NCBI GenBank assembly: GCA_030867875.1
Contig: JAOWCC010000019.1
Coordinates: 75,296,861-75,360,860, forward strand
From: Actinernus sp. WN-2022
Lineage: Eukaryota > Cnidaria > Anthozoa > Actiniaria > Actinernidae
Length of the DNA stretch: 64,000 bases
Direction of reading: 5' to 3'
Positions 24,241 to 62,754 of the stretch are shown here, piece after piece. The translations under genes and the position numbers were made by a program. Within the stretch, counting starts at the first letter, position 1. Every line of letters begins with the position of its first letter. The notes beneath the pieces were generated by a model that saw nothing but the letters and a program-made list of their open reading frames with translations, ran no database searches and was not told the origin of the DNA.

Positions 24241-24361
24241 GTGGGGTGTTAGATGTACCAACGTTCTTTGCAACTTGCAATGCGATATACTTCAGCCCGC
24301 CGCCAGATAGTTACAATCTTCAGCAGAAACTCCTCAATACAATAAAAACAATTCAATTACA

Positions 24362-25070: not shown

Positions 25071-25079
25071 GCAATATTT

Positions 25080-26948: not shown

Positions 26949-26996
26949 TTTGTGTCTTTCGGCATGAGAATGTTTATCATTTATGGCTTCACAGTA

Positions 26997-29048
26997 TTAG
27001 GCATCATGCGAGGCCCTCTCGGCAAGATTCCCAGGTGCACCACTCTTCACGCTCCCATTGCTCTGCATTGCATTCTTAGAGTTGTTCGTATCGCTTGAAC
27101 CTGCCGGTGGTTCATTCGTTTTACCAGAACTCGGTTTCGCACCGTCATCGTTCTTTGAATCTGGGTTGGGATCGTCTTTAGCTGCGTCATTTTCATCACC
27201 AGCTTTGCCTTCTGCCTCGCTATTATCCTCATCACTTGAAGACTTATCTTCTTTATCTTTTTCTTCCACGTCACTGTCACTGTCACTGTCCTTATCACTT
27301 GGCGGATCTGCCTCGGATTCCTGTTCAACTACGGAGGCCGCATCAGGAGAACTAACATTTTCACTTTGTGGAGAGAGTGCGTCAGCCGCTGGAGGCGATT
27401 CCTTCGCATCTTCCTTTGCCTCTTCATCGTCATCGCTATCTTTCACTTCGGTTTCTTTTCGTGCTTCGTCGTCAGGACTCGGGCTCTGCTTACTATCGTC
27501 AGTTACGACGTCATCAGCATTTCGGTTTTCCAGGATGGCTTCTTCATCACTGCCTAACAACGCTTCCTCCGTTGTTAGCACTTCTTCTTCTACGACTTCT
27601 CCAGTATCGTGAACTTCTGGAACATTTTTCTCTTCTTCTTTCTCTTCCTCTTCCCTTCGCGGCCTCTCCTCTTTATTCTCTAGTCCATTTACCCAAGCCT
27701 CTTGTTGATTTAAGTTATCTGCGATGGTTTCTTCCCCTGCTTGTACTGTCTCGCGAATTCGCTGCTCTAAGGTTTTCTCGGTATCGTCTTTCCCTTCTTC
27801 TTCTAAATACGTCACATCTTCGACGGTTTCCGTAATTTCTTCGTCGACTTCCTCTGCCGGCACGTCATCGATTAGTTTCTCAGTAAGAGTTTTCCGGTCA
27901 TCGAGTATCATTTCACCCCACTCGTGCTGCATCCCACTAGCGTTATACAGTTTTTTCGCAATCGAATCCCTCTCAGCAGCCTCGAGTTCACCAATATTAG
28001 GAGGTATCAGTTCACCAGTTTCGGATGGCTTGTCGGAAGTCGATTCCTCAACGGCTTTACGGAGGGCTTTTACTTGGGAAGGCAAGTTAAAATCTGGGGA
28101 TTCCTCACCGAAGAGCGGCGGAGTTGCTGATAGCGTATAGTTATGAAAACTCTCCTGCTTTTGTGATGTTAGCGTTTGTTCTTCTGAAGTAGGATTTGCA
28201 TTTGAATTCCTTGTGGACCCGACAGCCATGTTTGAAGTAGAATTAAGGTGAGCTACACGTGTATGGTTGTCTTGTTTTGGCGGTCTCTTTGGTTTATACG
28301 CTTGTGCTTTAGGATTCTTCTTTGGCGACTTATAGCCTCCGGTATATCCTCCCTGACTGTATCCTATCTGCGGTGACTTAGTGAATTGGAATCCTCGAGG
28401 ACTCAAGCCGAAATTCTCGTAGTCCATCAACTTGAACGTACAACCCCGTTCAACTACTACATATTTCCCATCGTGTTGTATCTGAGACGGCTCGAGCATT
28501 TGCCTCCCATCTAGGGCAAACAACTTTGCGATGGCGAAATTACAGTCTATGTTACTCTCTTGTAAAGCGATCAGAACCATTTCCATACTCGATAGCGTTT
28601 TTCTCTTAAGAACAATCTTTCTCGCTGGAGTCATTGTGTCTCCATTACGAAATACATGAATGCGTTTTAAAGCCAGTTTCTCTCCTTCGTACACTTTCTT
28701 AGCTCTCCCTGAAGATGGCAACTGGTTTCTCCAAATTGGAGGGAGTCTTGCAGTCCTTCTAGCCTTGATTTCTCCGTATTTTATTCTCTTGAAGCTTTCC
28801 CTCCCAACCGCGACATATCTACCGCCGTTTTCGAGATTTTCCACGCTCTTGATAGCGTGTCTTCCTTGGGGCGTGAATATTCGCTGGACAGCACAGTTGT
28901 ACTGAGTGAAAAAAGTTGCTGTGTCGAGAAATGCATCGAAGCTTCGATAATACCGGTTATTTACGACGACCTCTTTTCCAATAAAGTTCTGGTCACCGTT
29001 TCTAAAGAGAGTGATTCTCATTGCGTGTGGCACACCAACGTCGGCCAT
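26997..29048 (-). CDS. Doublecortin-domain protein, DCDC2-like
   Basis: A 683-residue protein from one uninterrupted coding exon. Two doublecortin (DCX) domains are tandem: residues 10-93 (RITLFRNGDQNFIGKEVVVN ... GGRYVAVGRESFK) and 128-211 (KRIHVFRNGDTMTPARKIVL ... DGKYVVVERGCTFK). DCX domains bind and stabilise microtubules; in DCDC2-type proteins they act mainly in cilia. A basic linker (220-270) follows, then from about 355 to 660 a very acidic, low-complexity tail rich in Glu, Asp and Ser, likely disordered. The start is supported by a strong 3' splice site (TTTTCTTACATCAG, exon from 29060) 12 nt before ATG, so a non-coding 5' exon lies further upstream and was not located. Human DCDC2 is shorter (about 480 residues). 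The two-domain order fits DCDC2, but the exact orthology is inference. Confidence 0.9.
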   Translation of the reverse strand: MADVGVPHAMRITLFRNGDQNFIGKEVVVNNRYYRSFDAFLDTATFFTQYNCAVQRIFTPQGRHAIKSVENLENGGRYVAVGRESFKRIKYGEIKARRTARLPPIWRNQLPSSGRAKKVYEGEKLALKRIHVFRNGDTMTPARKIVLKRKTLSSMEMVLIALQESNIDCNFAIAKLFALDGRQMLEPSQIQHDGKYVVVERGCTFKLMDYENFGLSPRGFQFTKSPQIGYSQGGYTGGYKSPKKNPKAQAYKPKRPPKQDNHTRVAHLNSTSNMAVGSTRNSNANPTSEEQTLTSQKQESFHNYTLSATPPLFGEESPDFNLPSQVKALRKAVEESTSDKPSETGELIPPNIGELEAAERDSIAKKLYNASGMQHEWGEMILDDRKTLTEKLIDDVPAEEVDEEITETVEDVTYLEEEGKDDTEKTLEQRIRETVQAGEETIADNLNQQEAWVNGLENKEERPRREEEEKEEEKNVPEVHDTGEVVEEEVLTTEEALLGSDEEAILENRNADDVVTDDSKQSPSPDDEARKETEVKDSDDDEEAKEDAKESPPAADALSPQSENVSSPDAASVVEQESEADPPSDKDSDSDSDVEEKDKEDKSSSDEDNSEAEGKAGDENDAAKDDPNPDSKNDDGAKPSSGKTNEPPAGSSDTNNSKNAMQSNGSVKSGAPGNLAERASHDA

Positions 29049-29070
29049 TCTGTGTCTGTTCTGATGTAAG
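29049..29070 (-). promoter_or_regulatory. 3' splice site before the doublecortin-gene ATG
   Basis: On the minus strand a pyrimidine tract ends in ACATCAG at 29061, leaving 12 nt of 5' UTR before ATG 29048. It shows that the mRNA leader is spliced. Confidence 0.65.
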
Positions 29071-29564
29071 AAAACAGAGAATTGATTAAATAATTATATT
29101 TTAATTGTTTCTGTCGGTAGTCCAATTGAGGACTCGAGCCTTTGGTGCATTCAGACGAACTTGGCATGCAGTTGGCATCTATACTTGCATGTCAGATGAT
29201 TTATTGACTTTATTCAAATTACGCCGGGCGAGACTTGTTATGTCTTGCAAGTTTAAGAGCTATCAAACAGTGTTTAATTCTCGGTTGTTTCTTCAAAATC
29301 ATCAAACTTTCAAAATTCAGGTGCAAGTAATTGCCTTCGGTCAAGCAAGTGTAATCATTTTGAAGACGCGAGTATACAATGTCTGACGGCATATGCCACT
29401 GACTGTCTGGCGCCAATTAAGATCGATACTATATTTACTTATCCTTCATTATAAAGTCGGTATTCGAGACTGAATTAAGCTGGGGGGCTTTTCCGTTTTT
29501 TCTCGTTTCCAAAAATAAACGAAGAGCGAAAAGAAACAACCTTATAACTCATTACAAAATATAG

Positions 29565-29922
29565 GATTTAAAGGTGCACTGACAATCGAATTGAACCTTC
29601 GAGTTTCTTTAAAACCAACTTCAAATATAACACCCTGAGATAGAAGAGAAATACTAGATGTAAATGTCCTGATATGTGTTTCAATCTTTTTCGATAGAGG
29701 ATGACAAAGATTAAACTGAAGTGGATTACAAAAGCTTACTGCTAGAAACTTGATTTCGGTTACAGTTAACCGATTTCGCGTTCGGCTCTCAATTTCTCTT
29801 AAAGGCAGTATTTTCATCCACTCAAATCTTTGACATTCTTCATTAACATTGTCTCAAATTTACTCCAGTATACCTGGAAAGCTTACTCTGCTAATCTGAG
29901 TAGTTATTTTTGTCTTTCGTCA
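29565..29922 (-). mobile_element. MITE family 1, copy d
   Basis: Full-length reverse copy from TTTAAAGGTGCACTGACAAT to CCAGTATACCTGGAAAGC. It lies just upstream of the doublecortin-domain gene, within a possible leader intron or promoter. Confidence 0.75.
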
Positions 29923-33655: not shown

Positions 33656-34491
33656 CTTTAAACGAGGAAGAGGATTTATCGACGTCTTTTAAATCTCTAG
33701 GGAGTAATTCTGCTGTAACGGAAGGTTCCGAACTGTTTTCTCCAAGATGGCCGTTGACCGTGACAGATGGGAGATTGACGTCTATGTAGATTCCGGTAAT
33801 ACTTCACGGCATGCGACCTTCTGTTTGTGTTAATTGTTCGCTAAGCAAAGAAAACCTCGCTTAATGATTACCAATAAATCTGCCTTTCATCAGACAAGAA
33901 AGCCCCTTGGCGCAACTTATATGTGATTGATCACAAATTCACAATGGCAGCTTTGATAATCCTAGAAATTACCTTTTGAAACTTTCCAATCAGTATAGGC
34001 TTTACTTGTTTTTGTTTTGTTGCGAGGGACTGGAAAAAAAGCCAAACTTAATTAGCATGGTAAGCTCCGTATCGACAGAAGTCATTGCCACGGAAACACA
34101 AACAGATTTGATCAGTATCCATACTAATTAAAGTTCAAAGTTTCAAAAGGCAATTTCTAGGGTTATCAAAATTGCCCTCGTGATCTATCAGTCACCTTTC
34201 ATAAATGTCAAAAAGTGTATTGAAAATATCTGAATCACAAATTAAATTCAAAAACACAGGACTTGGAAGAAAATAAAAATCCTCTGAGTTTACCCTGCGA
34301 GCAGAGGTTTCTCATCTCCTTGCCTTTCCTGTCGCCGAAAGAAACCTCTGCCACGAAACGATTGGTTTTCCCGTTGAAAATGTGCCACGGTATCTGGATT
34401 GCCATTGGCCGAAAAAAAATGAGACGGTAAACATTGTAGATTCATTGTTATGGCGCGTATTTCTTGTCAAAATTCAATTCGACATGCGTTA

Positions 34492-34772
34492 TCAAAGTTC
34501 AACATTCGTCATTATAGTTTAGTCACCGATCGTTATTAAAGTTCGACATTCCTTGTTAGAGTTCGACATTCGTTATTAAAGTGCGACATTCGTTATTTAA
34601 GTCAATATTAGAGTTTGACATTCGTTGTTAGAGCTCGACGTTCGTTATTAAAGTTCGACATTCGTTATTAGAGTTCGAAGTTCGTTATTAGAGTTCGAAG
34701 TTCGTTATTTAAGTTCGACATTCGTTATTAAGAGTTCGAAGTTCGTTATTCAAGTTCGACATTCGTTATTCA
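34492..34772. repeat. 20-21-bp tandem array, left foldback arm
   Basis: Variants of GTTCGACATTCGTTATTAAA, about 13 units, with GAAGTTCG and CAATATTAG variants. A shorter inverted counterpart is at about 36250-36440 in the right arm. Confidence 0.75.
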
Positions 34773-34871
34773 ATGAGACTGGGTCGAAATTTGGCAGAGC
34801 GAGGAAACTGGGAAACGTGCTTAACACATTTTCCTCTCTGGCTTTACAGCTAAAGATGTTTTCCTCTCTAG

Positions 34872-35018
34872 GGTACAGTCTCTTATTCAATTTCTAAACA
34901 ACTTTGATGGCTTTGAGTTTGATACAAGAAATCTGGATAACTTAATTACGCGTGCTAATATGTTGTATCACCATGCTGTACGTCTCGCATCAGTTGACAT
35001 GGTTACGGTGGCTTATAA
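34872..35018 (+). pseudogene. Captured coding segment in the foldback arm
   Basis: A splice acceptor (TTTTCCTCTCTAG) precedes an open frame including VQSLIQFLNNFDGFEFDTRN and ANMLYHHAVRLASVDMV. The right arm (36233-36059, minus) has the same frame with an 18-codon stretch (starting GESTINKLRS) that the left arm lacks, but it has lost the acceptor. This looks like an exon captured from a host or element gene. I do not recognise the family. Confidence 0.45.
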
Positions 35019-35033
35019 GGGCATCATGAGAAA

Positions 35034-35180
35034 CCGAGATACGAGAATCCGAGATACGAGAATCCGAGATGCGAGAATCCGAGATGCGAGAATCCGAGAT
35101 GCGAGAATCCGAGATGCGAGATGCGAGATGCGAGAATCCGAGATGCGAGAATCCGAGTTGCGAGAATCCGAGATAGGAAT
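35034..35180. repeat. 15-bp tandem array (left arm)
   Basis: About ten units of CGAGAATCCGAGATG with single-base variants. The mirror array is at 35880-36055. As multiples of three they stay open in several frames (RIRDA or RESEM repeats), so long frames here are not evidence of a gene. Confidence 0.8.
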
Positions 35181-36980
35181 AGCGGGGAGGCCTGGGACCT
35201 AACTACAGTCCATGAGAAATTCGTCAAAATAGCGCGGATTTAACATTTTAAGAGCTTTGGGTTAGGCTATAGGTATATCTCGGCGATCGTAGCGTAATTT
35301 TATATGGCAACCACTCTCCAGCGATCGACACATTTCTGAATGACTGTAAACTGACTTATCAAAACATTCCAAGATGCCACGGAATACTAAAAATAATTCC
35401 CAAATCTGAGCTATTAATAGTAAACATGGTTATCCAAGGGTCCCCGGGGGTAGGGGTAGTCTAATGTTTTCAACAGGAACCAGGTTTTTTTGGCGGGGGA
35501 AATAACTGTTATTGACCAAGAGAAAATGTTAAATGCACCGCTATGTCGTGGTTTCAATTAACTGGTGCATAATAGGCCGACTCTTGTACAGAGCTAAGTT
35601 GCTTTAATCTATCTTGTTCGTTACTGAGTAAGTAGTCAGCATCCTCAGTACGTTGGCCCTCGACCCCCGCGATATAGTGTCCTTCTCCCATCCCTCGCTT
35701 TCTTTGGATTGGCCGAGGAATTAACAGCGTGCACAATTTACGAGGAAATCTAGCGGTGATTTGCGAAGACCGAAAGATGGAATCTCGTATAGAACAGAGT
35801 TACGTTATCTTGTTCAATAGTATGGTAAATCAACTGAATTACCACATGGACTGTAATTAGGTCCCAGGCCTCCCCGCTATTCCTATCTCGGATTCTCGCA
35901 TGTCGGATTCTCGCATGTCGGATTCTCGCAACTCGGATTCTCGCAACTCGGATTCTCGCATCTCGGATTCTCGCATCTCGGATTCTCGCATCTCGGATTC
36001 TCGCATCTCGGATTCTCGCATCTCGGATTCTCGTATCTCGCATTCTCGGTTTCTCATGATGGCCCTTATAAGCCACCGTACCCTTCTCTTGTAGCAAATC
36101 GACAATACTTCTTAGCTTGTTGATCGTACTCTCCCCGACCATGTCAACTGATGCGAGACGTACAGCATGGTGATACAACATATTAGCACGCGTAATTAAG
36201 TTATCCAAATTTCCTGTATCAAACTCAAAGCCATCAAAGTTGTTTAGAAAATGAACTTCGAACTCTAATAACGAACTTCGAACTCTAATAACGAATGGCG
36301 AACTCTAACAACGAATGTCGAACTCTAATATTGACTTAATAACAAATGTCGCACCTTAATAACGAATGTCGAACTCTAACAACGAATGTCCAACTTTAAT
36401 AACGATCAGTGACTAAACTATAATGACGAATGTTGAACTTTGATAACGCATGTCGAATTGAATTTTGACAAGAAATACGCGCCATACATTGTATGTAGAT
36501 TTTAAATTGTCCATTTCCTATTGTTATAAACGGCAGTAGAGAAAATAAAATTAATGTCCTTATTCGAAGGTGTAAATCAAAGCTTTCTCTAGGATAAATT
36601 AAGGTAGACTTATTGAACGGTAATTTCAAGGTCTTCTGTGCAGTTCAGTAAAGTAAGAAGAAGACAAAGCCGGAGTTTGAAGCCCGTTCGTATCAATCGT
36701 CGGCAAACAACAAACGCGTGACGACATAAATAACGGCTGCGAAGGTACTGTGGGCTCTTGCAAAACCAGCGAAGATCACCAAAAAGTCATGCCCGTGATA
36801 TCAAACAGGTAAAACCGGTTTGGTAACTGGTTTATCACGTGGTTTACCTCTAAGATTTTGGACTGAGATTGCAAGTGCGCATGTTCAACGGGAAAAGCAA
36901 TCGTTTCGTGGCAGAGGTTTCTTTCGGCGACAGGAAAGGCAAAGAGATGAGAAACCTCTGCTCGCAGGGTACTCTGAGTT

Positions 36981-40798: not shown

Positions 40799-43700
40799 TT
40801 ACACTTCTTTATATTCACGTCGAAAAAGATGGGAGCGAACTGTTGTACCCTGGGAAGAACAACAACGACGTTTCTCTTTCATTTACTGGTATAAACTAGT
40901 CGAAATTAAAGGATAATTATGAAACTCTTTGTCAAATTTACCAGCATCTCTCCATCTTATCTCCTATTAAGATCGGTTTTAATTGCCAGTTGTTGTCTCA
41001 TTACAATCTTTACGTTAGGTTCTCTTGAGTACCTTAATTAGCTTGAATCAATATGTCCTGAGTCTGGAGAACAAGAGATGAATGAGATTGATATCCAGCG
41101 TATTTTAATTTGAGTCTGGTTCAATAAGATAAGTTAAGTACAATACATTGTTAGGAAATTATTTACAATACAAGATAACAGGGACTCAGTATGAAGGTCT
41201 TGAAGACTTGCTGGACGCCATGTTCAACAGCCATAACATAATCACGTCACTAGTTTTCGTTACCAAACAAAAACATCGGCTCTTTCTAGGTGCATCAATG
41301 TCGTCAAATTCAAAATAATGAATTTTGTATTCACTAGGGTTAGGGTTCTTTGTATTGTCGGGTATTTATTACGATATATTCATTTTTCAGTTTTATAGTG
41401 CGAGGCCACTTAATTGGAAAACGAGAACCAATCACATTGCATAACGAAAACAAAGCATTCCAACTTACGGTTATTTGATCCAATCAGTGTTGAGTACAAG
41501 GCAATAGCATTCCAACTTACGGTTATTTGATCCAATCAGTGTTGAGTACAAGACAATAGCATTCCAACTTACGGTTATTTGATCCAATCAGTGTCGAGTA
41601 CAAGACAAAAGCATTCCAACTTACGGTTATTTGATCCAATCAGTGTTGAGTACAAGACAATAGCATATTTGATCCAATCAGTGTTGCTCGAGGTTCGATC
41701 CGGTACAAGGAAAATGTGGTGAACTAGTTCGGAAGTCACGAAGTCTTCTAAATGAAGTAATTCATTGTTTTTAGTTCTCGTTGTCTTTCTCTGCTAGCAG
41801 AGGTCTCTCTCTGTCTTGGTAAAATGGAAACGAGAGCCGGAGAGAGACAGGTCTCTCTTCTCTCGTTTCCATTTTACCAAGACAGAGAGAGACCTCTGCT
41901 ATCAGGGAATCATTGTCTAATGACACTGTAAGTTATGTTTTCTGCAATAAATACACAACCGATTACCAAACTCAGTTCACACATCGTATAAAATAGAGCT
42001 ATAAAGATAGACTGATATCATGTATAGCATCTTTATTATAGAATTGTCATACATGTTATATTCCTTGCATGTACAATTCTTTATTTTATAATCCCAAATG
42101 CTTATATTAGGCTGCACTATTCAATAGCCATCAACTCATTTGGAACAAATTTCAAACAAATTATGCAATGCTTACTATGTATACATTTACGTAATTCTCA
42201 CATCCCTTATATACTTATGATATTAAGGGGGGACGTATCCCATGAGCATCTTGTCAGCTTCGTGTACACGCACAATAACTGTGCTAGAGCGGTTTTCAGT
42301 TGAGTGTAGTAAAACCAAACACAAATTACCCACAGCCAGCCAATCATAGGAGCGAGTAATCACAAGTAACTTATAAATGGCTTCCCTGTGAGCCAATGAC
42401 AAACCAAAGCAAAGCCAAAACCAATTTGCGTTTGGTTTTACTTTGGATTCTGATTGGTTGGTTTACTTTCTCAGCCAATAGCAGAGCTTAGTAAAGGCAA
42501 AACCAAAACACTTCCGACACTCAATTGAAATCCGCTCTATCTGTGACGCGAACACAGACTTTGGAGCACCGTCAACCCACCAAATGACATGACTTTCATG
42601 ACGAACAACAAAAATAATTACTCAGATTAGCGGAGTGTGCTTTCCAGGTATACTGGAGAAAATGTGAGACAATTGTGTTGAAGGATGACAAAGATTCGAG
42701 TGGATGAAAAATACTGCTTTTAAGAGAAATCTAAAGCAACTTTAAATCGGTTCACTGTAACTCTAAAATAAGCTTCTATAATCCACTTTAATCTTTGTCA
42801 TCCTCTATAGCAAAAGTTTTAAAAAGCATACCAAGACATTCACATGGTATTTCTCTTCTATCTCAGGGTGTTATGTTTGTAGTTTTGATTTGAAGAAACT
42901 TGAAGGTTCAATTCAATTGACAGTGCCCCATTAAATAAATTTTACCTAGGTAACCTAATTTTTCCTAGTCAAATTACTAATTCTCCTCCGCTATGTGACG
43001 GATTAATTCTTCTCTCGTGTCGTCTTTTGCTATCCTTTTTTCGCCTTTTCCTCTGGAAAGGAAATATCCAGTTAATAAAACGTTCCGCCCTGGGAAGGTT
43101 AAACCCCGAGAGGGGTACTCCCTGATAAAAGCTATAAGTGTACTGTGCCACTGGATGGGGTCTTGTTTTTCGGCCTTCTAGGTCTGAGATGAAGTCCCAG
43201 TTTCGTCCTCTAAGTATGAGATAGAGTATACACTTTCTGTTCAATTTTCGAATGCAATGTTTTGGCTTTTTTCTTCTCGTTATTTTTGCCCAGTAGTTTC
43301 TGGGAAATTTGAAGTTTCCGGGCTGAAATGGGATACCAAATTTAACCCTTTAGTCTGATGGGGTAGGACAAAATTTTATTTTCCTGAAAAGGGATAGGGT
43401 TTCTTAAGTCCCAGCGGAGCATCCCCAACCCTATTCCCCCCAATCTCCGGAGGGCGGGGGGGTGTTAATAGCAAACTAATAAAAAGGCAGTTTGCAAGCA
43501 CGAGTCATTTACCTTTTAGATCTTGAGTGCGTGTGTTAACCTTCCTTCTGCATATTCTTTCATTCTGTGGAGAACGGTAAAAATTTTGAGCTACTGTCAA
43601 ATCGCTAAACTCGGATATTAATAGAGAAATATATTAAATTTAAAGAAGCAACACAAAACAAGCCGGACATTTTGTCCAAAATGATACCTACGGAGTCCTC

Positions 43701-46700
43701 AAAGGGACATGGAAACTTTTAACTTTTGATGTAACTAATGCAGTTTGCCGATGCAACTTCATGTTAAATGGACATTGTCAATCGAATTGAGCCTTCAAGT
43801 TTCTTTACAACACAACTACAAAAATAACACCCTGAGATACATGTAGAAGATAAATATCAGGTGAATGTCCTGATCTGCTTTCAGACGTTTTCGACAGAGA
43901 TTAAAGTGGATTACAAAAGCTTATTCTAGAAATTTGATTTCGGTTACAGTCACTGAACTGATTTCAAGTTGCTCAAGATTTCTCTTAATAAAAGCAGTAT
44001 TTTCATCCATTCGAATCATTGCCATTCTTCATTAACATTGTCTCAAATTTACTCCAGTATACCTGGAAAGCACACATGCATGGCTAATCTGAGTAGTTAT
44101 TGTTGTTTTGGGAGTTGACAGCCGGCCCTTTATGGGGCTTTCATTTATTAGAGCAGGGGGGGGGGGGGCAACATTGCCACACAGGTGTGTGCTCAAAATA
44201 TTATCCAACTCCCCCTCCATGATACTTAAAACATTTCACACCCACTCCCCCCTTGCCTACATCTGATATTTTGTAAACCCCCCTTCTTTCCATTACTACC
44301 ACCACCATTCTACCCCAGCATGCTCTTAGTGAGATGCAATGAGCAAAGCTTTAATTCATGCTATTAAAACATGTGTAAAGTGACACCCTTGCGTAAATAA
44401 AAGTATAAGTCTTCAACATTAGTAGTACTAAATATCCCCCTTCCATAATAGCCCACTTCCGCGATTTGCTTTACTTGTCATCAAAGGTTTCAATACGAGG
44501 CCCCGTGCTAAATTAAATTTATTCTTTTCACAAAGAAAATAATAAATTTAATTTAGCACGGGGCCTGGTATTGAAACCTTTGTGCGTAACAAGTAAAGCA
44601 TATCGCGGAAGTGGGCTATTCTTCTGTGAATTTCAAACACCCCCCCCCCCCCCCCCCCCCAATCTTGCCAACCCCCCTCCTATATGACAATCTTCCACCG
44701 AACTGTACAATGTTTCTCTTGTGCTGCTGGATTCATTTCAGTAATTTAGTGATTAAGTCGGCTTGACCTATGATAATAAAACACACAGAAAAAAGATGGC
44801 GGCTCTACATTGGCCCACAATCCCTTGCGAACCTAACACAGTATAACACACAGTGTATTGGCAACATCACTTGTACTGGCTTGTTTTTAAGATTTAAAAC
44901 CTCTACAGCGATTTTATAAGGGATTTAAAGATTTTCGTGCGCAAAGGATTGTGGGTAACAGTCAAGCCATCACCTTTTAAGGTGTGGTTCTCAGTCAAAC
45001 AGTAGTGCATCACCTCTATCAGTTCCCCTATGTAATACGAAGCCATTATTTCGCTCGCCTCCTTTGAGTGTCCAACGTCTTGAAATACACCTGTGACATC
45101 ATGACCTGAAAAATATTCCCCCGTGGGAGGGGGGCACTCTTGTTTATGTTTTAATATGTATGTGTGGCGTTATCGGGTCCGGTTTTGAACCTAATTCCGA
45201 ATTCCGGATCCGGGTTTTTTCGTAAAATATGTCGAATTCCGGATTACGGACGATTCAGAACAATCGAAACAGAGAGAAAATCCGGGTTGGTGTTCACAAT
45301 AACTTGGAAATCCTGGGTTTGGAGCCGTATATTCGCGTAAAACTGTCCAGTCCAGGACCTCATGCATGGCCGCAGGTACACATACATTTATCATACAAGT
45401 GCCCCCTCCCCCACGGAATTATTCGCTCTCATCACGTGGCGGCCATATTGGCTAGAAACAGAGTTACCACGTGTAGTCTCGCACTGAGCAGCTTCAGAAC
45501 GAGGTTACCTCCCGGTCCTGGTGGTGCATTGGAGTAGTGTGCTGTAGTGCACATCTGTTGTTGTGCGCTTTCTCCCACATGGCCAGTGCGCCTTTTTGCG
45601 ACCGCACGCTCGAGAACGGTCAATGGAGGGAATCGCTTCTCGGCCTTTTGGCTAAGGTCAAGTGCGAAAGCACTTTTTCTTAGACTATCCTTTCTTTGTA
45701 ACTAGGTCCTTCTCAAGGCTAGTGCTGCCTATCTCGCAAAGTACCCGTTCTCTCTCTTTTTATTTTAAGGTAAATGAGCGACTGAAATTCAGGTTAGGTT
45801 AGGCGGGGTAAAACAATAGATTTACCACGTGTAGTCTCGCACTGAGCAGCTTCAGAACGAGGTTATACGGCGTAAAACAAAGGTTTTTATTCTCCTGGAA
45901 TTAAACATGGCCGTCGCGTGTTAAGAGAGATTATTATACGACTTGGCGTTTTCGAGTGCAAATACGGCTAAAACAACTGCAAATATGAGACCGTATTACA
46001 CAGGTCGCGAACAGGTTTGTACAGGTTTATTCAACACTTAGTGCCTATGAACAATACATTTTTATTTTAGATATCGATTTTAAATCAAGTGAATAAGTAG
46101 TATAGGAATTGGGGTTTCTGGCGCAGCACCTCGTATTTTCTGTAGAAAACAAAGTGATGGCACCCCCCCCCCCCCCCCCCCCCCCCCCGTGGAACAGGCG
46201 CCATTACCCAGAGGCAAGGCCTGTCCCCCGAGTAGGTACCATCATTTTGCTATAACTAAAAAGACAATTAGAGAATACGTACGTAGTATATATCAAATGT
46301 AAAAACATTTCGAGATGGAGGAAAGCACTTGTAGTTGGTTGATGCGTGGGAAGGTTAGGAGAGTGTACTTTCCGCCAGGTCTACCTCGATTTCAGCTACC
46401 TTTTTGCTCACCCACTTTCGGCAGCCATTTTTTTTGTGTGTCTCCTGCAAAGACCAAAATACCCCGTCCATATACATTCCCTTCTTTGGCCCGCCCCCTA
46501 GGATAGTGTATTTTGTAGCCAATTTCAGCCCTATTAGAGCTACAGTAGCACAAAATATATCGAGCGACTTTCGTACATCGAACCTACACTAGAGCAACAT
46601 GGCTGTACAAGCAACCTTCGCAAGTATGGGTATTCGAGCCAAAAAGTCCGTAGCCGCACATCTGTTGGTAGAGAATGCCTACGAGAGCAATCTCCTGTCC

Positions 46701-49700
46701 GACATCTCCAAGGTCGACTATCTAGCAGAACACGAGGGTCGAACCCACCTTCGTCCCATTCCAGGTCTTCCAACCTTTGTCGACGACGTCTATGTGTTTG
46801 GATATCTTCGGCAGGAGGACATTGTGGTGTCTCGAGGGTATGTACTCTGTACGACAGGAGAGGAAGGTACAGCAAAGTACGTAGTAGCAAGAGTGGTGCT
46901 AGCAGCACGCGAGGCTATGGGCAAAAAGGCAGATGGAACTTCGAGGAGTCACATCCCTACCAACATCCTACATACTCTCGCAACAAGGAAAGACACCCAA
47001 GGCAGTTCCATTCGGGCTACAATCGAACGGATCGAACACGGCACCGAAAAAGCAGCAAAAAGGAAGTGGAACGAACTCTACGGCAACGTCGAAGCAAAAG
47101 GTCTGTTTGTTGCGAAGGTAGATGTGTCCGACATACCCATGGACGAACTACAAGCCTCTCTACCAGCGTTCGAACGCCAGCTACTATTCCAAGGGTACGG
47201 GTTGTATTCCATCGACTATACACAGGACTTCTCTGAGGTCCTCGATCGAAAAGCGTTGGTGGAGCACCTATGCGTTTTCGAAGACTTCCGAGAGCAGGGA
47301 TCCTTCTTCGAGGCCATGTCCAATCTGGAAAAGCCCACCATCCTCGCAAATATCGATAGCGTCGGCAACCATGTGTGTACGTGGGTCCACACCAACCCAG
47401 ACGGCTACAGAACTATAACAAAGATATACAACAAGATCGTCTCGAATTTCGAAGCCGGAGAGGTCCAGACCCCAGTGGGAGGCTATCTTGCCGAGTACGT
47501 CGACTGCCCCAATCCACACCTGCGCAAAACCTTCCAACATCCAGATGTACAAGCTCGAGGCTGCACACGCATCGAGATATCGCTGTATGCCTGCCAAGGA
47601 ACTATGCTGTGTGCAACAACGGCCCAGAAGGTGGTCGACAAAGCCCTAGCGCTAGTCTCTCCAAAAGACGATCTACCAGAAGAAGAAGGACTCTTTGTGG
47701 TCCAACCTCCAGCCAAGCAGTGGGAGAATCTTGCTGCTAGCCTAGACCGATGTCTTGTGGTGGCCAATCGCCACATGGGAGAGATATTTGTGGCTTGGTA
47801 TGCACACACCACAACAGGAAGAGTCGCAGGTGTTCGGATCCTTCCTACCAAGGCCAATATCGAAGACGAACAGAAGTGGGAGAGAGCAGTCGAATGGGCC
47901 GCTGCAGACTTCGGCTTCCGAGGTTGTCCTATCTTTCGGGTAGACATTCTATCCCTAGAACCAGAAAACATCGAAATTGCGCCACTACGATGCTACACCA
48001 AGGACCCCAACTCCGACACAATTTTGGCTGCAAGCAAGAAGCCCACACAGCTACATCCAAAAGCTTCGAACCCCGAGCAGCTGTTGCCAGAGACATCCTA
48101 CATATCGTGGATCTGGAGAGACGAAAAGTGCCAGATCATCGGAGTAGCAAAAAGCATCTTCCCACTCCTGGAAGTAGATACCAACCGGCAAATCTCCACA
48201 TTGTCGAAGGCAACCGCGAGAAGCGTCTACAAGACCTGGAAGATGCATTGGCCTCGCACGAGTGGAGACAAAAAACCAAGGAACACCACGAAGCAGTGCT
48301 CCAGCAAGAAGAAGAAAAGAGACAGAATCGAAAGACAGAGTTGGAAGGTCTGCAGAAGTACGTGGAGGCACATCGATGGTATAGAAAAATATCCACACAA
48401 ACTCGGAAGCAGGTACTCGACGCACTAGACGGCCAAACCGCCAAGCTGGCATGCATTGCCCCAGACCCTGGCAACATAGCAACACCCTTTCGAATCCTAG
48501 GGTATAGACAACCAACCAAGGAACGCGCACCAGGAACAGGCGATGGAATGCGCATTGTGTTGTCCCCGGAAGATGCAGCCGGAATGGTACCCAAGACAAT
48601 CGTGGTATGGCCCACCAAAAGCCTATCCAAGGTGTTGGGAGAGTGTGTCGACGACTTCGAGATCGACGACAAAGATTGCTATGGACGTATCCTATACTGG
48701 CTCCCCACCACAAACCAGAAAAAGAGGCTATGCATTGGAGTCGAGTCCACTCGTGTATTCCAAAACAAACAGGGGTGCGATATTTCTTGGAACCCTATTG
48801 TCGTGCTCTGTACCCCCGATCCTACGAAGAAAGCCAAGCTCCAGGCCATTGCCGACAGGGCATGGGAGGCCGAAAAGCAAATACGCGCCCTAGAGCAAGA
48901 GCAAGCCCAAGCTCGGATGGCACAATCGCCTGCCCCAAAGCCAAAGGATTGTACCAAGGCATTAGATCTAGCCAAAGGAGAGTATATTTGCCGCTACTAC
49001 TCCCAGGCTATATTTCGTGGAAATCCTCGAATATTGTTGTGGTTGTATCCAATCGACAAAGATGGCAATCCCACAGCCGAAGCAGAGCCTGTATATGGCA
49101 AGTTCCTACAAGACGAGGTAGACAGAGTTGGTGGATCAGAGACACTATCGAAAGCCTTTGCCCCCATTCGCTGTTGGCTAGGAGAAGAGAGGACAACTCC
49201 ACAAAAGAAGAAGGATAGACTAGCCACACTGGTAGCAGTAGAAGCACCAATACCCTAGACAACCACAACTCCCCCATCGATTGCTAGATAGGCATGTCCC
49301 CACCTATCGGCTACAACAAACAACTCGCCCAATTCCCATCCTCTACACTTCTTTGCGGTCTCCCCAGATATATGTCCAAGTATGCCAGTGCCTTTGGCAC
49401 CAACAGCGTCCATCGTTTCCAAGGCCACAAACTCCAATTCCGAAAACTCTCGAGTAGGACCATCCAGGTATGCTTGTCGCGCCGCTACGAAGGAACGCAA
49501 AGGGAATCGAGGAGGACAACCACGAACTTTCTCGATATCCATGGCGCGGGGTATACTATGGGTGTATATACCTAGTAGGACAAATCTCCAAGACGTACGA
49601 ACTAGAAAATATATTCCCATGCAGACCACCATAGACAATTGCGATCCATAGCAGAAAATACATTCCCATGCAGACCACCATAGACAATTGCGCCAAACAA

Positions 49701-52700
49701 AAAGAAGGACCGACTTGTCACCATATCTATATGCCACTGTGTAGAAACAGATGAACAAACGAAGACTACTAGCCAAGACTAGCCAAACGCTGGAATGCTG
49801 GACTATCTGGCCAAGGCAACACAAGGCCATCCTCGTTGCACAACGAAGGAGTCTCGTCGTCGTCGTCTCGCACAAGATACAACGGTCCAAGAGCAAGAGC
49901 AGCGCACAGAGCTTTCCCCACGCTTTCTACTCCAACATCCTCCAATCCAACAGAGCACAACACACCTTTCCCTTTTTTCGGCGAGGCAAGGTATTCCTCC
50001 AAGGACGTCATGGTTGCACCCGAAGACACAGCCACTGCCATAGCGTCCCTCCAAGCCTGTATTGGATAGAACAATGGCCACTTTCCCCAAGAACCACACA
50101 CTCGTGGCATAGCCATCCTATATATACTCTGCAGATAGGAACCTCCAAATGCGCCTGCCTACCTACTAGAGAAACATCTACTATAGAATATATCCTACAG
50201 TTGCTACGATTGCTACGCAACGACAAAATGTCAAAACCCACCCAACTATCCGAAGAGCAGATACGATGTCTGGCACAGCCGCAAAGAAGAAGTATGGGAT
50301 AGGACATGCACGACTCCGACGCATATGGGGCGAAGACCAGGAAGACCCAACCATGCGCCAACTGCGGAAAGACACAGAAGAGGTCCAGAAGGAGCAGGAA
50401 GAGTATTTTGCCCCACTCGAAGGAAAGAAGCCGCATCCAAGGGCAGCAAAGAAGAGAGCTCGGCCAAAGCCCAAAGAAGAAGAAGCATGTGCAATTGCAT
50501 AGGTCGCGAACAATAGGAAGCAAAAGAAAAGAAAAAGCTCGTTGCAACGGTACGAACATAGGGAAAGAAAAAAGAAAAGCTCGTTGCAACGGTACGAACA
50601 TAGGGAAAGAAAAACGAAAAGCTCGTTGCAACGGTACGAATAATAATAATAATAATAATAACGTATTAGGAGCATCCTACAGAGTCTCGATGCTCTTACA
50701 TACTATACCTAATAGAAATAAAAATTACATGAATATATAAAAAGTATCAAGTAACTAGCTAAAAGCATCTAAAAAGAAAGGTCTTCAAACTTGATTTAAA
50801 CGTAATTAATGAATCAATACTTCGAATATAATCCGGAAGAGAGTTCCACAGTTTAGCTGCAGCGACATAGAATGATCTGTCGCCATAGGTTACAGTATTA
50901 CAACGAGGAACTGACAGTAAATTATGTGAATGTGAACGAGCTTTTCTTTTTTCTTTCCCTATGTTCGTACCGTTGCAACGAACATAGGGAAAGAAAAAAG
51001 AAAAGCTCGTTGCAACGGTACGAACATAGGGAAAGAAAAAAGAAAAGCTCGTTGCAACGGTACGAATAATAATAATAATAATAATAACGTATTAGGAGCA
51101 TCTTACAGAGTCTCGATGCTCTTACATATTATACCTAATAGAAATAAAAATTACATGAATATATAAAAAGTATCAAGTAACTAGCGAAAAGCATCTAAAA
51201 AGAAAGGTCTTCAAACTTGATTTAAACGTAATTAATGAATCAATACTTCGAATATAATCCGGAAGAGAGTTCCACAGTTTAGCTGCAGCGACATAGAATG
51301 ATCTGTCGCCATAGGTTACAGTATTACAACGAGGAACTGACAGTAAATTATGTGAATGTGAACGAGCTTTTCTTTTTTCTTTCCCTATGTTCGTACCGTT
51401 GCAACGAACATAGGAAAAGAAAAAAGAAAAGCTCGTTGCAACGGCACGAACATAGGGAAAGAAAAAAGAAAAGCTCGTTGCAACGGCACGAACATAGGGA
51501 AAGAAAAAATAAAAGCTCGTTGCAACGGCACGAACATAGGGAAAGAAAAAAGAAAAGCTCGTTGCAACGGTACGAACATAGAGAAAGAAAAAAGAAAAGC
51601 TCGTTGCAACGGTACGAACATAGGGAAAGAAAAAAGAAAAGCTCGTTGCAACGGCACGAACATAGGGAAAGAAAAAAGAAATTGCTCGATGCCAACGGAG
51701 CAAACATATGGGCAGAAAAGAGAAGTGCGTACCAAGGAATCCCACCGCCCGAGAGGAAGGAAAAAAAAGAAGTGCAATCGCGCAGACCACGACCAAGAGG
51801 AAGGGAAAAGAAGCGCAATCGCATAGGCCACGCCCTTGCGGATGCCAAAGAGCCAACCCTTGGGGCAATTTCTCTGGACCAAGGGCAATTTCCTATAGCA
51901 TTGGGGCAATTTCCTATAGCATTGGGGCAATTTCTCTGGACCAAGGGCAATTTCCTATAGCATTGGGTCAATTTCCTATAGCATTGGAGCAATTTCTTAT
52001 AGCATTGGGGCAATTTCTCTGGACCAAGGGCAATTTCCTATGTTCGTACCGTTGCAACGAGCTTTTCTTTTTTCTTTCCCTATGTTAGTGCCGTTGCAAC
52101 GAGCTTTTCTTTTTTCTTTCCCTATGTTCGTACCGTTGCAACGAGCGTTTCTTTTTTCTTTCCCTATGTTCGTACCGTTGCAACGAGCTTCTCTTTTTTC
52201 TTTCCCTATGTTCGTACCGTTGCAACGAGCTTTTTCTTTTCTTTTGCTTCCTATTGTTCGCGACCTATGCAATTGCACATGCTTCTTCTTCTTTGGGCTT
52301 TGGCCGAGCTCTCTTCTTTGCTGCCCTTGGATGCGGCTTCTTTCCTTCGAGTGGGGCAAAATACTCTTCCTGCTCCTTCTGGACCTCTTCTGTGTCTTTC
52401 CGCAGTTGGCGCATGGTTGGGTCTTCCTGGTCTTCGCCCCATATGCGTCGGAGTCGTGCATGTCCTATCCCATACTTCTTCGTTGCGGCTGTGCCAGACA
52501 TCGTATCTGCTCTTCGGATAGTTGGGTGGGTTTTGACATTTTGTCGTTGCGTAGCAATCGTAGCAACTGTAGGATATATTCTATAGTAGATGTTTCTCTA
52601 GTAGGTAGGCAGGCGCATTTGGAGGTTCCTATCTGCAGAGTATATATAGGATGGCTATGCTACGAGTGTGTGGTTCTTGGGGAAAGTGGCCATTGTTCTA

Positions 52701-55700
52701 TCCAATACAGGCTTGGAGGGACGCTATGGCAGTGGCGGTGTCTTCGGGTGCAACCATGACGTCCTTGGAGGAATACCTTGCCTCGCCGAAAAAAGGGAAA
52801 GGTGTGTTGTGCTCTGTTGGAGTGGAGGATGTTGGAGTAGAAAGCGTGGGGAAAGCTCTGTGCGCTGCTCTTGCTCTTGGACCGTTGTATCTTGTGCGAG
52901 ACGACGACGAGACTCCTTCGTTGTGCAACGAGGATGGCCTTGTGTTGCCTTGGCCAGATAGTCCAGCATTCCAGCGTCTGGCTAGTCTTGGCTAGTAGTC
53001 TTCGTTTGTTCGTCTGTTTCTACATATGGTGGCAAGTCGGTCCTTCTTTTTGTTTGGCGCAATTGTCTATGGTGGTCTGCATGGTAATATGTTTTCTGCT
53101 ATGGATCGCAATTGTCTATGGTGGTCTGCATGGGAATATATTTTCTAGTTCGTACGTATTGGAGATTTGTCCTACTAGGTATATACACCCATAGTATACC
53201 CCGCGCCATGGATATCGAGAAAGTTCGTAGTTGTCCTCCTCGATTCCCTTTGCGTTCCTTCGTAGCGGCGCGACAAGCATACCTGGAGAGTTTTCGGAAG
53301 AGGAGTTTGTGGCCTTGGAAACGATGGACGCTGTTGGTTCCAAGAAATATCGCACCCCTGTTTGTTTTGGAATACACGAGTGGACTCGACTCCAATGCAT
53401 AGCCTCTTTTTCTGGTTTGTGGTGCGGAGCCAGTATAGGATACGTCCATAGCAATCTTTGTCGTCGATCTCGAAGTCGTCGACACACTCTCCCAACACCT
53501 TGGATAGGCTTTTGGTGGGCCATACCACGATTGTCTTGGGTACCATTCCGGCTGCATCTTCCGGGGACAACACAACGCGCATTCCATCGCCTGTTCCTGG
53601 TGCGCGTTCCTTGGTTGGTTGTCTATACCCTAGGATTCGAAAGCGTGTTGCTATGTTGCCAGGGTCTGGGGCAATGCATGCCAGCTTGGCGGTTTGGCCG
53701 TCTAGTGCGTCGAGTACCTGCTTCCGAGTTTGTGTGGATATTTTTCTATACTGTCGATGTGCCTCCACGTACTTCTGCAGGCCTTCCAACTCTGTCTTTC
53801 GATTCTGTCTCTTTTCTTCTTCTTGCTGGAGCACTGCTTCGTGGTGTTCCTTGGTTTTTTGGTCTCCAATCGTGCGAGGCCAATGCATCTTCCAGGTCTT
53901 GTAGACGCTTCTCGCGGTTGGCCTTCGACAATGTGGAGATTTGCCGGTTGGTATCTACTTCCAGGTGTGGGAAGATGCTTTTTGCTACTCCGATGGTCTG
54001 GCACTTTTTGTCTCTCCAGATCCACGATATGTAGGATGTCCCTGGCAACAGCTGCTCGGGGTTCGAAGCTTTTGGATGTAGCTGTGTGGGCTTCTTGCTT
54101 GCAGCCAAAATTGTGTGGGAGTTAGGGTCCTTGGTGTAGCATCGTAGTGGCGCAATTTCGATGTTTTCTGGTTCTAGGGATAGAATGTCTACCCGAAAGA
54201 TAGGACAACCTCGGAAGCCGAAGTCTGCAGCGGCCCATTCGACTGCTCTCTCCCACTTCTGTTCGTCTTCGATATTGGCCTTGGTAGGAAGGATCCGAAC
54301 ACCTGCGACTCTGCCTGTTGTGTTGTGTGCATACCAAGCCACGAATATCTCTCCCATGTGGCGATTGGCCACCACAAGACATCGGTCTAGGCTAGCAGCA
54401 AGATTCTCCCACTGCTTGGCTGGAGGTTGGACCACAAAGAGTCGTTCTTCTTCTGGTAGATCGTCTTTTGGCGAGACTAGCACTAGGGCTTTGTCGACCA
54501 CCTTCTGGGCCGTTGTTGCAGACAGCATAGTTCCTTGGCAGGCATACATCTGGATGTTGGAAGGTTTTGTGCAGGTGTGGATTGGGGCAGTCGACGTACT
54601 CGGCAAGATAGCCTCCCACTGGGGTCTGGACCTCTCCGGCTTCGAAATTCGAGACGATCTTGTTGTATATCTTTGTTCTAGTTGTGTAGCCGTCTGGGTT
54701 GGTGTGGACCCACGTACACACATGGTTGCCGATGCTATCGGTATTTGCGAGGATGGTGGGCTTTTCCAGATTGGACATGGCCTCGAAGAAGGATCCCTGC
54801 TCTCGGAAGTCTTCGAAAACGCATTGGTGCTCCACCAACGCTTTTCGATCGAGGACCCCAGAGAAGTCCTGTCTATAGTCGATGGAATACAACCCGTACC
54901 CTTGGAATAGTAGCTGGCGTTCGAACGCTGGTAGAGAGGCTTGTAGTTCGTACATGGGTATGTCGGACACATCTACCTTCGCAACAAACAGACCTTTTGC
55001 TTCGACGTAGCCGTAGAGTTCGTTCCACTTCCTTTTTGCTGCTTTTTCGGTGCCGTGTTCGATCCGTTCGATTGTAGCCCGAATGGAACTGCCTTGGGTG
55101 TCTTTCCTTCTTGCAATAGTATGTAGGATGTTGGTAGGGATGTGGCTCCTCGAAGTTCCATCTGTCTTTTTGCCCATAGCCTCGCGTGCTGCTAGCACCA
55201 CTCTTGCTACTACGTACTTTGCTGCACCTTCCTCTCCTGTCGTACAGAGTACATACCCTCGAGACACCACAATGTCCTCCTGCCGAAGATATCCAAACAC
55301 ATAGACGTCGTCGACAAAGGTTGGAAGACCTGGAATGGGACGAAGGTGGGTTCGACTCTCGTGTTCTGCTAGATAGTCGACCTTGGAGATGTCGGACAGG
55401 AGATTGCTCTCGTAGGCATTCTCTACCAACAGATGTGCGGCTACGGACTTTTTGGCTCGAATACCCATACTTGCTAAGGTTGCTTGTACAGCCATGTTGC
55501 TCTAGTGTAGGTTCGATGTACGAAAGTCGCTCGATATATCTTGTGCTACTGTAGCTCTAATAGGGCTGAAATTGGCTACAAAATACACTATCCTAGGGCG
55601 ACGTTTGTCTACCAAAGTGGGCGGGCCAAAGAAGGGAATGTATATGGACGGGGTATTTTGGTCTTTGCAGGAGATGCAAAAAAAATGGCTGCCGAAAGTG

Positions 55701-58700
55701 GGTGGGCAAAAAGGTAGCTGAAATCGAGGTAGACCTGGCGGAAAGTACACTCTCCTAGGGCCCAAGAAGGGAATGTATATGGACGGGGTATTTTGGTCTT
55801 TGCAGGAGACACACAAAACAATGGCTGCCGAAAGTGGGTGGGCAAAAAGGTAGCTGAAATCGAGGTAGACCTGGCGGAAAGTACACTCTCCTAACTTTGT
55901 TTTCTACAGAAAATACGAGGTGCTGCGCCAGAACCCCCAATTCCTATACTACTGAATAGTAGAATGGTAAAATATATTTTGCTTTGAATGCTGTGCCGCT
56001 GAGTTAAAGAGGTTTTAAGATCCAAAATACTAATTACATGACGTCAGGGGAGGTATCTGCAATCACTTCTTAGAGGTTGTGAATGGGCGTTTCTACTGAT
56101 ATAGGAAAACAAATTTCTAACATCATTTTATTTCAACCATGGGTATAACACTGATAATTTGAAAAATTTGTTTAATTGTAACAAAACAAATTGTATAATA
56201 ATTGATGCCTCCCCTGACGTCATGTAATTAGCATTTTGGATATTAAAACCTCCTTAACTCAGCGGCACAGCATTCAAAGCAAAATATATTTTACCATTCT
56301 ACTATTCACTTGATTTAGAATTGATACCTAAAATAAAAAAATATTGTTCATAGGCACTTTAAAAGGTTTTGTAAGCGCGCGAGCCAATCAGTACCCGCCC
56401 GACCCCGACATTGGAAATCAACTGAGGATGAGAGGTTTCTTATCTCGAGATTTTCTTCAAACAGAGCAGTAACGTAAGAGAAAACAAATATTTTTTGTTC
56501 GTGTTAGCTGTCGTATAATAAACAATTTATTACACGAAAAGTTGTGTAATACGGCTGGGAATTTTTAATCGTCAATTTTTTTTTTTTCTCGCATTTCAGG
56601 CTCGAAAAAATAAAACAGACTCGTATAAAAATACCCAACCATATTACACAACTTTCCGTGTAATAACTTCTTTGTATACTGTACCTTCCCTGGTATTCAT
56701 CTTAATAATTACTTAATCATTACATCAGAACCTATAACGGTTTCATATTTCGCTTAGCCAATCAGCGTTGTATATCTCTACTGTATATAATTTCAAAGTT
56801 TACTTGTATTCTTTACTTAGCTCATATAATCGTTAACCCCTGAAGAAGGAACAGCCGTCCGATTAGCTCATATGATTTTTAAGTAAGCCTGGCAAAAGTT
56901 CGGGATTAACTCTCGCAAAGTGAAATATGACCTACGGCAGAAACTTTCGACTCAGGTTTCACATGTGTACTTCAAAGACCTCTCACGAACTGACAAGACC
57001 CCTCGATGTCACTTTCAAGAGCATTTGGCCCGGCAGTGACGTCACAATATTCAGCCGCGCGTTAACGAGAAGCTTGGAGACGAGGCTATGTTGGATACAA
57101 CACAGCCATGCAAACACAGCATGTAAATGTAACCACAGTTACCAGAAGTGACAGTTTCCGTCTATAGACCATTTTGTCAAGTATGCGCACGCAACAGGCT
57201 TGACGGGCCGTTAAATACTTCACGTGGGAATCACGTAGTGGTTTCCTATAACCCTCCCTATTATTTCAACCAATACTAAATCCAAGCTTTTTTGCTCTGA
57301 CGAAGGGCTAACGCTCGAAACGTCAGCTGCTACTCGCTTTCCACGGCGGTTAGCATACCTCAATCGACTTTGGTTGATTACACACCAGTCTAAATCCAAG
57401 CTGCCTACATGAAGTATTTCTTGGCGGGCCGTGAGTTTTGTTAGCTTTTGTTAGACTTGTTCTGATGCGACAGCCTTTGTTATTCAAATTATCGGCTATT
57501 GTTCAAAAATTGGCGGCTATTGTTCAAAAAGCGATTTGGCGGGCCAATATTGCGTGTGTATACCTGAGAAAACGGTCTATTGATTTACAGAATATTTATG
57601 TTTCTTTATGCTTCGGCCTTGCATTATTTAGCACTAGGCCACAACCTCCCTTCGTGCCTCTTATAAACACGTGCAATAAAAGTCGAACTTTTCTCTTGGT
57701 TTAGACGTTTCAGTGACTTAACTTCACAAACTATCAAGTAAAAACCTGATTTTTACGAGCCTCTCTAATGGTTACGGGATTGAATAGCCCACTTTTAATT
57801 AGATATGTTGCTTCACTAGTTTCAATAAGAGCTGGCTCCGCAACAAATTTTAAAAATGTGTTCTACTTTTGGATAATAGAATACATTTTATTTACCCCGG
57901 AGCGTCACGGTGACAAGTGAAGCACATAGAGATATCTGTAATATTATGCGAGTGCATACAAATTTCAAGTTCACGATAATATTACACATTCCTCTTGACT
58001 GTTGGACTTTTCTCTCCTGCAATTGTCTAATAGAGGTAAACAGTGACCCACCTGCATTTTCAAGCAGAATTTCCATCCCACCAGGATGCTGAATAAAAAA
58101 TAAAAAAAGCAACTCAAGCATGCATGTTAAGGCATGGTTTGAGCATGAAATCGAGGCTAAAGCTATTTTATTGAATAGAGTGGCTTATGTTTGCCCGAAT
58201 TCTACAAAAATAGTGGATATCACTAAGCTCAGCGTTCTGAGTCGTTTGAACAGATTTTGTTGTAAAATGTCTATCAGGTGACCAGCCACGTGATTACAAA
58301 ATCTGGAAATTTCATCTCAAAATGGCCCGGTTACACTGCATTTTTAAAATCCTAATCCTTCTAGCCAGTTCCACATTGTTGAAGTAACTTTGGACAACTT
58401 CATCTTTTTAATTACATCTATCAATCTTAGAACCAACCAATAAAGTATTGAAAGTGAATCAACTTTGAATAAATAATAAAGTCAAACATTTTAACGCGCC
58501 AAACAGATGACATGTGTCGACTTCGATCCCAGTTGCCGTTCGTGACTCGTGAACGTCTCTAATTTCTAGATCATGAAAATATTACCTCGTGAAGAAAAGG
58601 AGTCGCATCGTAGACGCTATCGTTGTAAACAATCCAGCAAGTCTCTACAGAACAGTGTCTCGAGACGTCCTTTAGTGAATATTCTATCGTTTTGTCATCA

Positions 58701-58723: not shown

Positions 58724-59149
58724 GACACAGCGTTAGTAGTTGCTGGCTGGTTGAGGAGGGAAGATTCTTGTGCGGCTTGAGATTTTGAGAGAAAAAAAGC
58801 GAACTTAATTGGGCTTTGGTACCAATCAGCGATGCATAGCTCATATTAAACTACTGTACTTCTAAGTCGAAACATTGGTATTGCGTATATGTGTTGTTGT
58901 AGCTAGACAAGCAAATAAATCATGATCTTTTTCACCCGTTGTATTCTGGTTGTCTGGTTCCGCAGTGTTGCATGACTGTTTCACGCACGATTGAATGTTT
59001 TCATTTATGTCATTAGTGATGCTTCATGCATGTCATCTATTGTTATTTTCATGACGAGCTTAACCCGGTTCAGGAATGCGGGTTCCCCGTCGTTTTCTAA
59101 CATTGAATACTAGAAATCTCACAGCTACGGTGGCCCACAACTGTCACGG

Positions 59150-59335
59150 CAAAAATAAGAGACTCGCGGCAAAAATAAAAGACTCACGGCGAAAGGAAAA
59201 ACCTCACGGCAAACATAAAAGACTCACGGCAAAAATAAAAGACTCACGGCAAAAGGAAAAGACACGCGGCAAAAGGAAAAGACTCGCGGCAAAAGGGAAA
59301 GACTCGCGGCAAAAGGAAAAGACTCGTGGCGGCAA
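59150..59335. repeat. 19-20-bp array, left arm of the foldback
   Basis: About nine units GGCAAAAATAAAAGACTCAC or GGCAAAAGGAAAAGACTCGC. The inverted array is at 62582-62737. Confidence 0.8.
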
Positions 59336-59508
59336 ACGATGAAAGTCCGTGGGGGTTGGGTCGAGTTTCTTCGAAGTGTACCATGGGATCCCATGGGATT
59401 TGAAAATGCTGTAAATGGGTCAGCGGTTGATCATGACACAGTCCGCCATCTTGAAACCAGTCTTCTTGAAACCCGTTTTCTTGAAACCCGTTTTCTTGAA
59501 ACATTACC

Positions 59509-62482: not shown

Positions 62483-62754
62483 GGCGGACTGTGTCATGGA
62501 TCAACCGCTGACTCCTTTACAGCATTTTCTTATCCCATGGTGCACTTCGAGGAAACTCGACCCAACCCCACGGCCTTTTTTCTTCTGCCGCCACGAGTCT
62601 TTTCCTTTTGCCGCGAGTCTTTTCCTTTTGCCGCGAGTCTTTTATTTTTGCCGTGGGTCTTTTCCTTTTGCCGTGAGTCTTTTATTTTTGCCGTGAGTCT
62701 TTTATTTTTGCCGTGAGTCTTTTATTTTTGCCGTGACAGTTGTGGGACACCGTA

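Follow-up and report, generated by a model that had tools for sequence, protein, structure and literature searches.

The window analysed here is a stretch of 64,000 nucleotides from the actiniarian cnidarian Actinernus sp. WN-2022 (GenBank assembly GCA_030867875.1, contig JAOWCC010000019.1, positions 75,296,861 to 75,360,860 of the forward strand), and it holds a palindromic element at 46096–55953. The ends were located by comparison with other genomic copies: both termini read 5'-AGTAGTATAG, with AGTAGTA ends in common, and a direct repeat of GAATA (46091–46095 and 55954–55958) flanks the element as a 5-bp target-site duplication. A sequence-only reading of the window had drawn the element at 46037–56366. 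The palindrome inside that interval stands, whereas about 55 bp on the left (46040–46095) and about 405 bp on the right (55954–56358) adjoin the insertion as parts of an older inverted repeat, resembling a miniature inverted-repeat transposable element, that served as the insertion target. The far arm of this older repeat is the uninterrupted sequence predicted by joining both flanks with one GAATA; this intact site and the ends seen in other copies identify the outer flanks as host repeat and not element. An outer repeat of about 118 bp, considered as the element's own end, was dropped once comparison with other copies had placed the termini at 46096 and 55953. The location proposed earlier, an intron of a cytochrome b5 gene, holds in so far as the insertion lies between two minus-strand exons resembling cytochrome b5, one with HPGG near 58.09 kb and one with GHS near 45.07 kb, although these were recognised by motif only.

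Self-comparison confirmed a real inverted duplication, with a left arm at 46096–50640 (plus strand) and an inverted right arm at 55953–52127 (minus strand) that lacks about 600 bp present in the left one. The arms are 98.4% identical (54 differences in 3,384 aligned positions, six ungapped blocks), and they also differ by indels that are independent between them. Given these substitutions and indels, the two halves decayed separately after the palindrome had formed. The main genes of each arm face the centre, as described previously, where repeat detection found 18 copies of GTTGCAAC (13 + 5) inside a 42-bp repeat, in two oppositely oriented arrays (50523–51724, plus strand, and 52037–52244, minus strand); these iterons carry a CGTTGCAACG core. 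The left array is interrupted by two copies of a sequence of about 296 bp with an (AAT)n tail (50640–50936 and 51067–51362), duplicated together with the array as a 426-bp tandem. A frame within it resembles the C-terminus of a long interspersed nuclear element (LINE).

The frames in the first 2.66 kb or so of the arm represent one gene, A, broken differently in the two arms. Its first part (46599–48206, plus strand) encodes a predicted TBP-fold, Rep_trans-like domain, its second part (48215–49258, plus strand) stands in another frame in this decayed copy, and the right-arm gene (53337–55495, minus strand) is broken and incomplete. Relatives of gene A are single proteins covering both window frames. 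A protein search scored 7,994 candidates and found 195 proteins at E ≤ 0.1, of which 120 were listed; the source-given names among these include Elysia crispata, Nematostella vectensis, Actinostola and a Thiodiazotropha metagenome-assembled genome, the last possibly host DNA of a clam. Among the 120 listed, 12 of 49 full-length relatives lie on contigs of 3.9–5.0 kb, and full-length frames number 40/63 on contigs up to 10 kb vs 8/46 over 50 kb, though short contigs may be mere assembly fragments.

The sequence-only reading had taken the likeness of four genes between arms as conservation. Between the window arms, however, gene A shows 37 substitutions that look neutral, 30 of them nonsynonymous where 27.3 ± 2.6 would be expected in the absence of selection, so that arm likeness is no evidence of selection and was dropped as coding evidence. 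The genes themselves find support in comparison with other genomic copies, which argues for A, C1 and C2 and more weakly for D. C2 (about 115 amino acids; 49769–50116, minus strand, with its right-arm counterpart at 52651–52995, plus strand) is conserved in both subfamilies described below, with matches in 20 of 27 loci, full-length matches 78–82% identical, and 57 nonsynonymous vs 116 synonymous pairwise changes between copies. A protein database search with C2 gave 13 candidates, none at E ≤ 1. C1 (49255–49542, minus strand, 95 amino acids) was found in 11 of the 27 loci, representing 8 distinct copies, all within the window's subfamily. D, an open frame of 78 amino acids with a basic C-terminus (50266–50502, plus strand; right-arm counterpart 52268–52501, minus strand), is matched in 3 of the 27 loci, a set in which many sequences end short of its position. 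By a codon model trained on gene A, D gains support (0.23 bits per codon), C1 scarcely any (0.07) and C2 none (0.004), so the case for C2 rests on the between-copy comparison. At a place similar to D, the other subfamily encodes a protein of 161–164 amino acids whose first 60 residues were matched in 14 of 14 halves. It has a weak HTH_28 match (E 0.004–0.005, below the cut-off), and it resembles D on visual comparison only (tblastn E 0.53).

When the gene A piece 46599–48206 was searched in six frames against the host assembly, 631 candidates emerged; 81 of them were scored, and all 81 were matches. Hits less than 20 kb apart formed 24 facing pairs (48 of the 81 hits, window included), no diverging pairs and one tandem pair; the 33 hits outside facing pairs reflect this neighbour rule and are not a count of single-arm copies. 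The copies split into subfamilies of about 90% and about 56% identity, with a few others intermediate. In the latter, gene A encodes 841 amino acids and has an open frame in 5 of the 6 left arms inspected, and the central repeats differ: from base 5901 on, copy L050 has 22.8 copies of a 25-bp unit in place of the 42-bp iterons. The arms come within about 75 bp of each other at the centre in C1312:166M and C1706:66.0M, with up to about 1.1 kb between them elsewhere.

Twenty of the 23 other facing pairs were examined, ten as halves and ten as ends. Fifteen showed termini at both ends (in C917, C685:3.4M, C635:35.0M, C1706:26.0M and C888:5.07M no such pair was detected), with a perfect 5-bp target duplication in 14 and 4 of 5 positions matching in C1100. 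One of the 14, C1380:42.3M, was read from the alignment, the automated scan having picked an internal match, and C235:42.8M and 43.1M, which have common flanks, were counted as one insertion. Terminal inverted repeats (TIRs) with a fixed 5-bp target duplication, as in TIR transposons, are thus found in 14 of the 20 other pairs and in the window. A multicopy family recurring as facing pairs with 5-bp target duplications identifies the palindrome as the inserting unit. Arms within one copy are also far more alike than the different copies compared: five independent young elements have 0–4 differences between their own arms vs 13–27 to the nearest other of the nine pairs compared, the C235 duplicates have 1–2 between arms and 1 to each other, and C917 has 29/2577 between arms vs 178/2582 to the nearest other copy. 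Either a single template gives rise to each new palindrome, or conversion works with great efficiency.

The predicted structure and active site of the gene A protein resemble those of Rep_trans initiators, indicating that gene A may encode a tyrosine nuclease with a TBP-like catalytic fold related to these rolling-circle enzymes. By conservation and order in sequence, candidate metal ligands are D (motif N'), D (motif I) and E (motif IV). Motif III (Y-x-K) is present, with Y277 in 120/120 and K279 in 118/120 of the relatives listed, and the final E of YxKxxE is absent at that spacing. A relaxed motif chain, chosen after seeing the sequence, occurred in 2 of 200,000 shuffles of gene A. A search of BFVD returned three hits below 1e-3, of which two are unnamed and the third is an uncharacterised phage protein, and a fold search with a single-sequence model (predicted local distance difference test score 34.9) was unproductive.

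As the sequence-only reading had noted, the element is compact and its proteins tested have no known transposase domain by Pfam; gene A had no strong match to a known transposase, LINE or host family in Pfam or NCBIfam. Pfam detected no DDE transposase in the window frames or in those L042 and L048 proteins that were tested, most copies not having been read at the centre, and no parvovirus NS1, helicase, capsid or coat domain and no Rep-Arvir (PF25227) match in the proteins tested. The free viral or plasmid forms envisaged earlier did not turn up in IMG/VR, INPHARED, PLSDB or GTDB contigs with the queries used, few animal elements being held there; DNA motif scans gave 13 matches in IMG/VR and 6 in GTDB, no relative among them. 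PHROGs, NCBIfam and Rfam gave nothing useful for the element. Among the papers listed by full-text searches for Rep_trans or PF02486 with eukaryotes, none, going by its title and the start of its abstract, deals with enzymes of this type in animals; Repbase and Dfam lay outside the scope of these searches, so the element may be listed there under another name.

Recurrent facing pairs, common AGTAGTA ends, 5-bp target duplications and conserved genes A and C2 describe a putative mobile DNA family that exists in the genome as its own mirror image, the window being one decayed copy. We consider it probable that this is a eukaryotic DNA transposon inserted as a palindrome of two inverted arms, each with a gene set, around a repeat-bearing centre. 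More tentatively, and with somewhat greater doubt than conviction, we suggest a new class of hairpin-replicating palindromic transposons, in which a TBP-fold (Rep_trans-type) tyrosine nuclease would make the palindrome at each transposition and insert it with a 5-bp stagger. The A protein would bind the central repeats and nick through the tyrosine of its Y-N-K motif, priming synthesis; one arm would then template both arms via a hairpin at the centre, giving a new palindrome every cycle. Paired A subunits at two identical ends, or an enzyme in trans, would make the staggered cut. The CGTTGCAACG-core iterons suit initiator binding, though central repeats of another kind occur in the other subfamily. 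A staggered double cut is implied by the 5-bp duplication, and a paired enzyme would be in keeping with the identical ends. Copying both arms afresh through a hairpin at the centre would account for their identity.

Several points weigh against this proposal. The family is known here from genome sequence, and target duplications are not a known product of rolling-circle initiators. Gene conversion, without replication, could equalise the arms. The arm comparison covers 9 of the 24 pairs over 2.6 kb, with the nearest copy sought among those nine. The C235 duplicates are no further apart from each other than their own arms are, and C635:16.7M showed 170/2495 arm differences in a fixed-offset slice, a value due to the slice crossing an insertion (99.2% over 2740 by BLAST). 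Selection on gene A between copies is modest (39 of 65 biallelic sites nonsynonymous between five young copies vs 72.5% expected, P 0.02). Gene A has no Pfam match to Rep_trans (PF02486), and no sequence link emerged from hhalign with a narrow profile of five plasmid Reps, from a PDB profile search or from BLASTP. Structural Z scores were all below 8, the top one being for TBP, not a nuclease, and Foldseek alone against the PDB gave nothing significant. Gene A has S-I-D and C-T-W instead of motif I RxD and motif II T/S-x-Y/E-x-G, as defined in the portion of PMC5714925 consulted.

The main rival is a foldback-type TIR transposon whose palindrome is inherited as a fixed unit, with A or a factor in trans as transposase and conversion equalising the arms. 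The TIRs and 5-bp target duplications fit it, and its standing owes most to a Galileo copy on record with 4.2- and 4.7-kb TIRs containing tandem repeats (in the part of PMC4168063 consulted). We nevertheless regard it as rather unlikely, since no known transposase domain was found, gene A looks like a replication initiator and the arms are near-identical in every young copy compared. A slightly smaller chance is given to the integration of head-to-head dimers formed by an extrachromosomal replicon or a virus, with insertion by its own or a borrowed enzyme, which is close to what the sequence-only reading proposed. The Rep-like gene A, the compact, overlapping genes and the excess of full-length A relatives on short contigs noted above would suit it, and the replicon-like character has gained from the resemblance of gene A to Rep_trans initiators in fold and active site. 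A one-off integrated dimer is contradicted by a multicopy family of facing pairs, found at many sites with fixed ends and 5-bp duplications, and neither a capsid or helicase domain (Pfam) nor a relative in IMG/VR was found.

About equally improbable is that gene A is a TBP-like DNA-binding protein and another factor does the chemistry. Its near-invariant acidic residues, Y-N-K and R-x-E follow the Rep_trans order, and TBP is not known to have a site of this kind. Assemblies are known to suffer from palindromic reads and joins, yet an artefact, or an inverted duplication of host DNA, is highly improbable with arms that differ by substitutions and independent indels, 24 facing pairs and target duplications; assembly artefact was dropped, as the arms differ and the form recurs.

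Elsewhere in the window, a second inverted duplication of about 2.7 kb lies at 34291–36971 (95 bp at 95.8%, 238 bp at 94.1% and 411 bp at 75.9%) and contains inverted 15-bp tandem arrays. Inverted 20-bp arrays at 59144–59447 and 62483–62736 face each other across about 3 kb. A 44-bp tandem repeat occupies 23153–24243 (25 copies) and 24911–25072 (3.7 copies), and a dispersed repeat of about 330 bp, about 76–82% identical, occurs at 26641–26967, 29566–29922, 42596–42936 and 43764–44109. On the minus strand, 26997–29093 encodes in a single frame a 698-amino-acid protein with doublecortin domains (Pfam DCX, E 3.2e-25), which points to an animal host.

Among known systems, gene A is close to Rep_trans (PF02486; pT181 RepC, pC221 RepD, RepSTK1), with which it shares a TBP-like fold, the tyrosine on a beta strand and the order N' Asp, motif I Asp, Y-x-K, R-x-E. 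It differs in having no detectable sequence similarity, motif I Arg or motif II, in some 500 extra C-terminal residues with a long helix, and in sitting in animal genomes inside an element with target duplications. Rep_trans is apparently restricted to bacteria, and the TBP fold was extended to archaea by Rep-Arvir of archaeal viruses and plasmids, an initiator likewise recognised structurally, not by sequence, and with a conserved tyrosine (PMC13107129, consulted in part); Rep-Arvir differs in being archaeal and in the Pfam result above. In the sources consulted, nucleases of this kind have been described only in bacteria and archaea. If our assignment is true, TBP-fold initiators are present in all three domains of life, and if gene A matches the fold and the active-site hints, animals too possess the second great class of rolling-circle initiators, within a transposon; the large protein family makes this question directly testable. 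Long palindromes are usually unstable, yet here a multicopy transposon inserts as one of about 9–10 kb with near-identical arms, which offers a natural system for studying how long palindromes arise and are tolerated. Replitrons and Helitrons, the HUH transposons, also carry a replication-initiator-like nuclease in a eukaryotic element, but HUH enzymes have a different fold with the tyrosine on a helix, and these transposons are not known to be palindromic. In parvovirus-like elements of animal genomes head-to-head dimers are replication products. Those elements also have hairpins (part of PMC3198968), whereas the frames tested here lack their NS1 and coat domains. Galileo and Foldback-like transposons share target duplications and, in one copy, TIRs of 4–5 kb with tandem repeats, but normally carry a P-superfamily transposase between the TIRs (PMC4168063, same portion), whereas the palindromic element repeats its gene set in each arm and yielded no known transposase.
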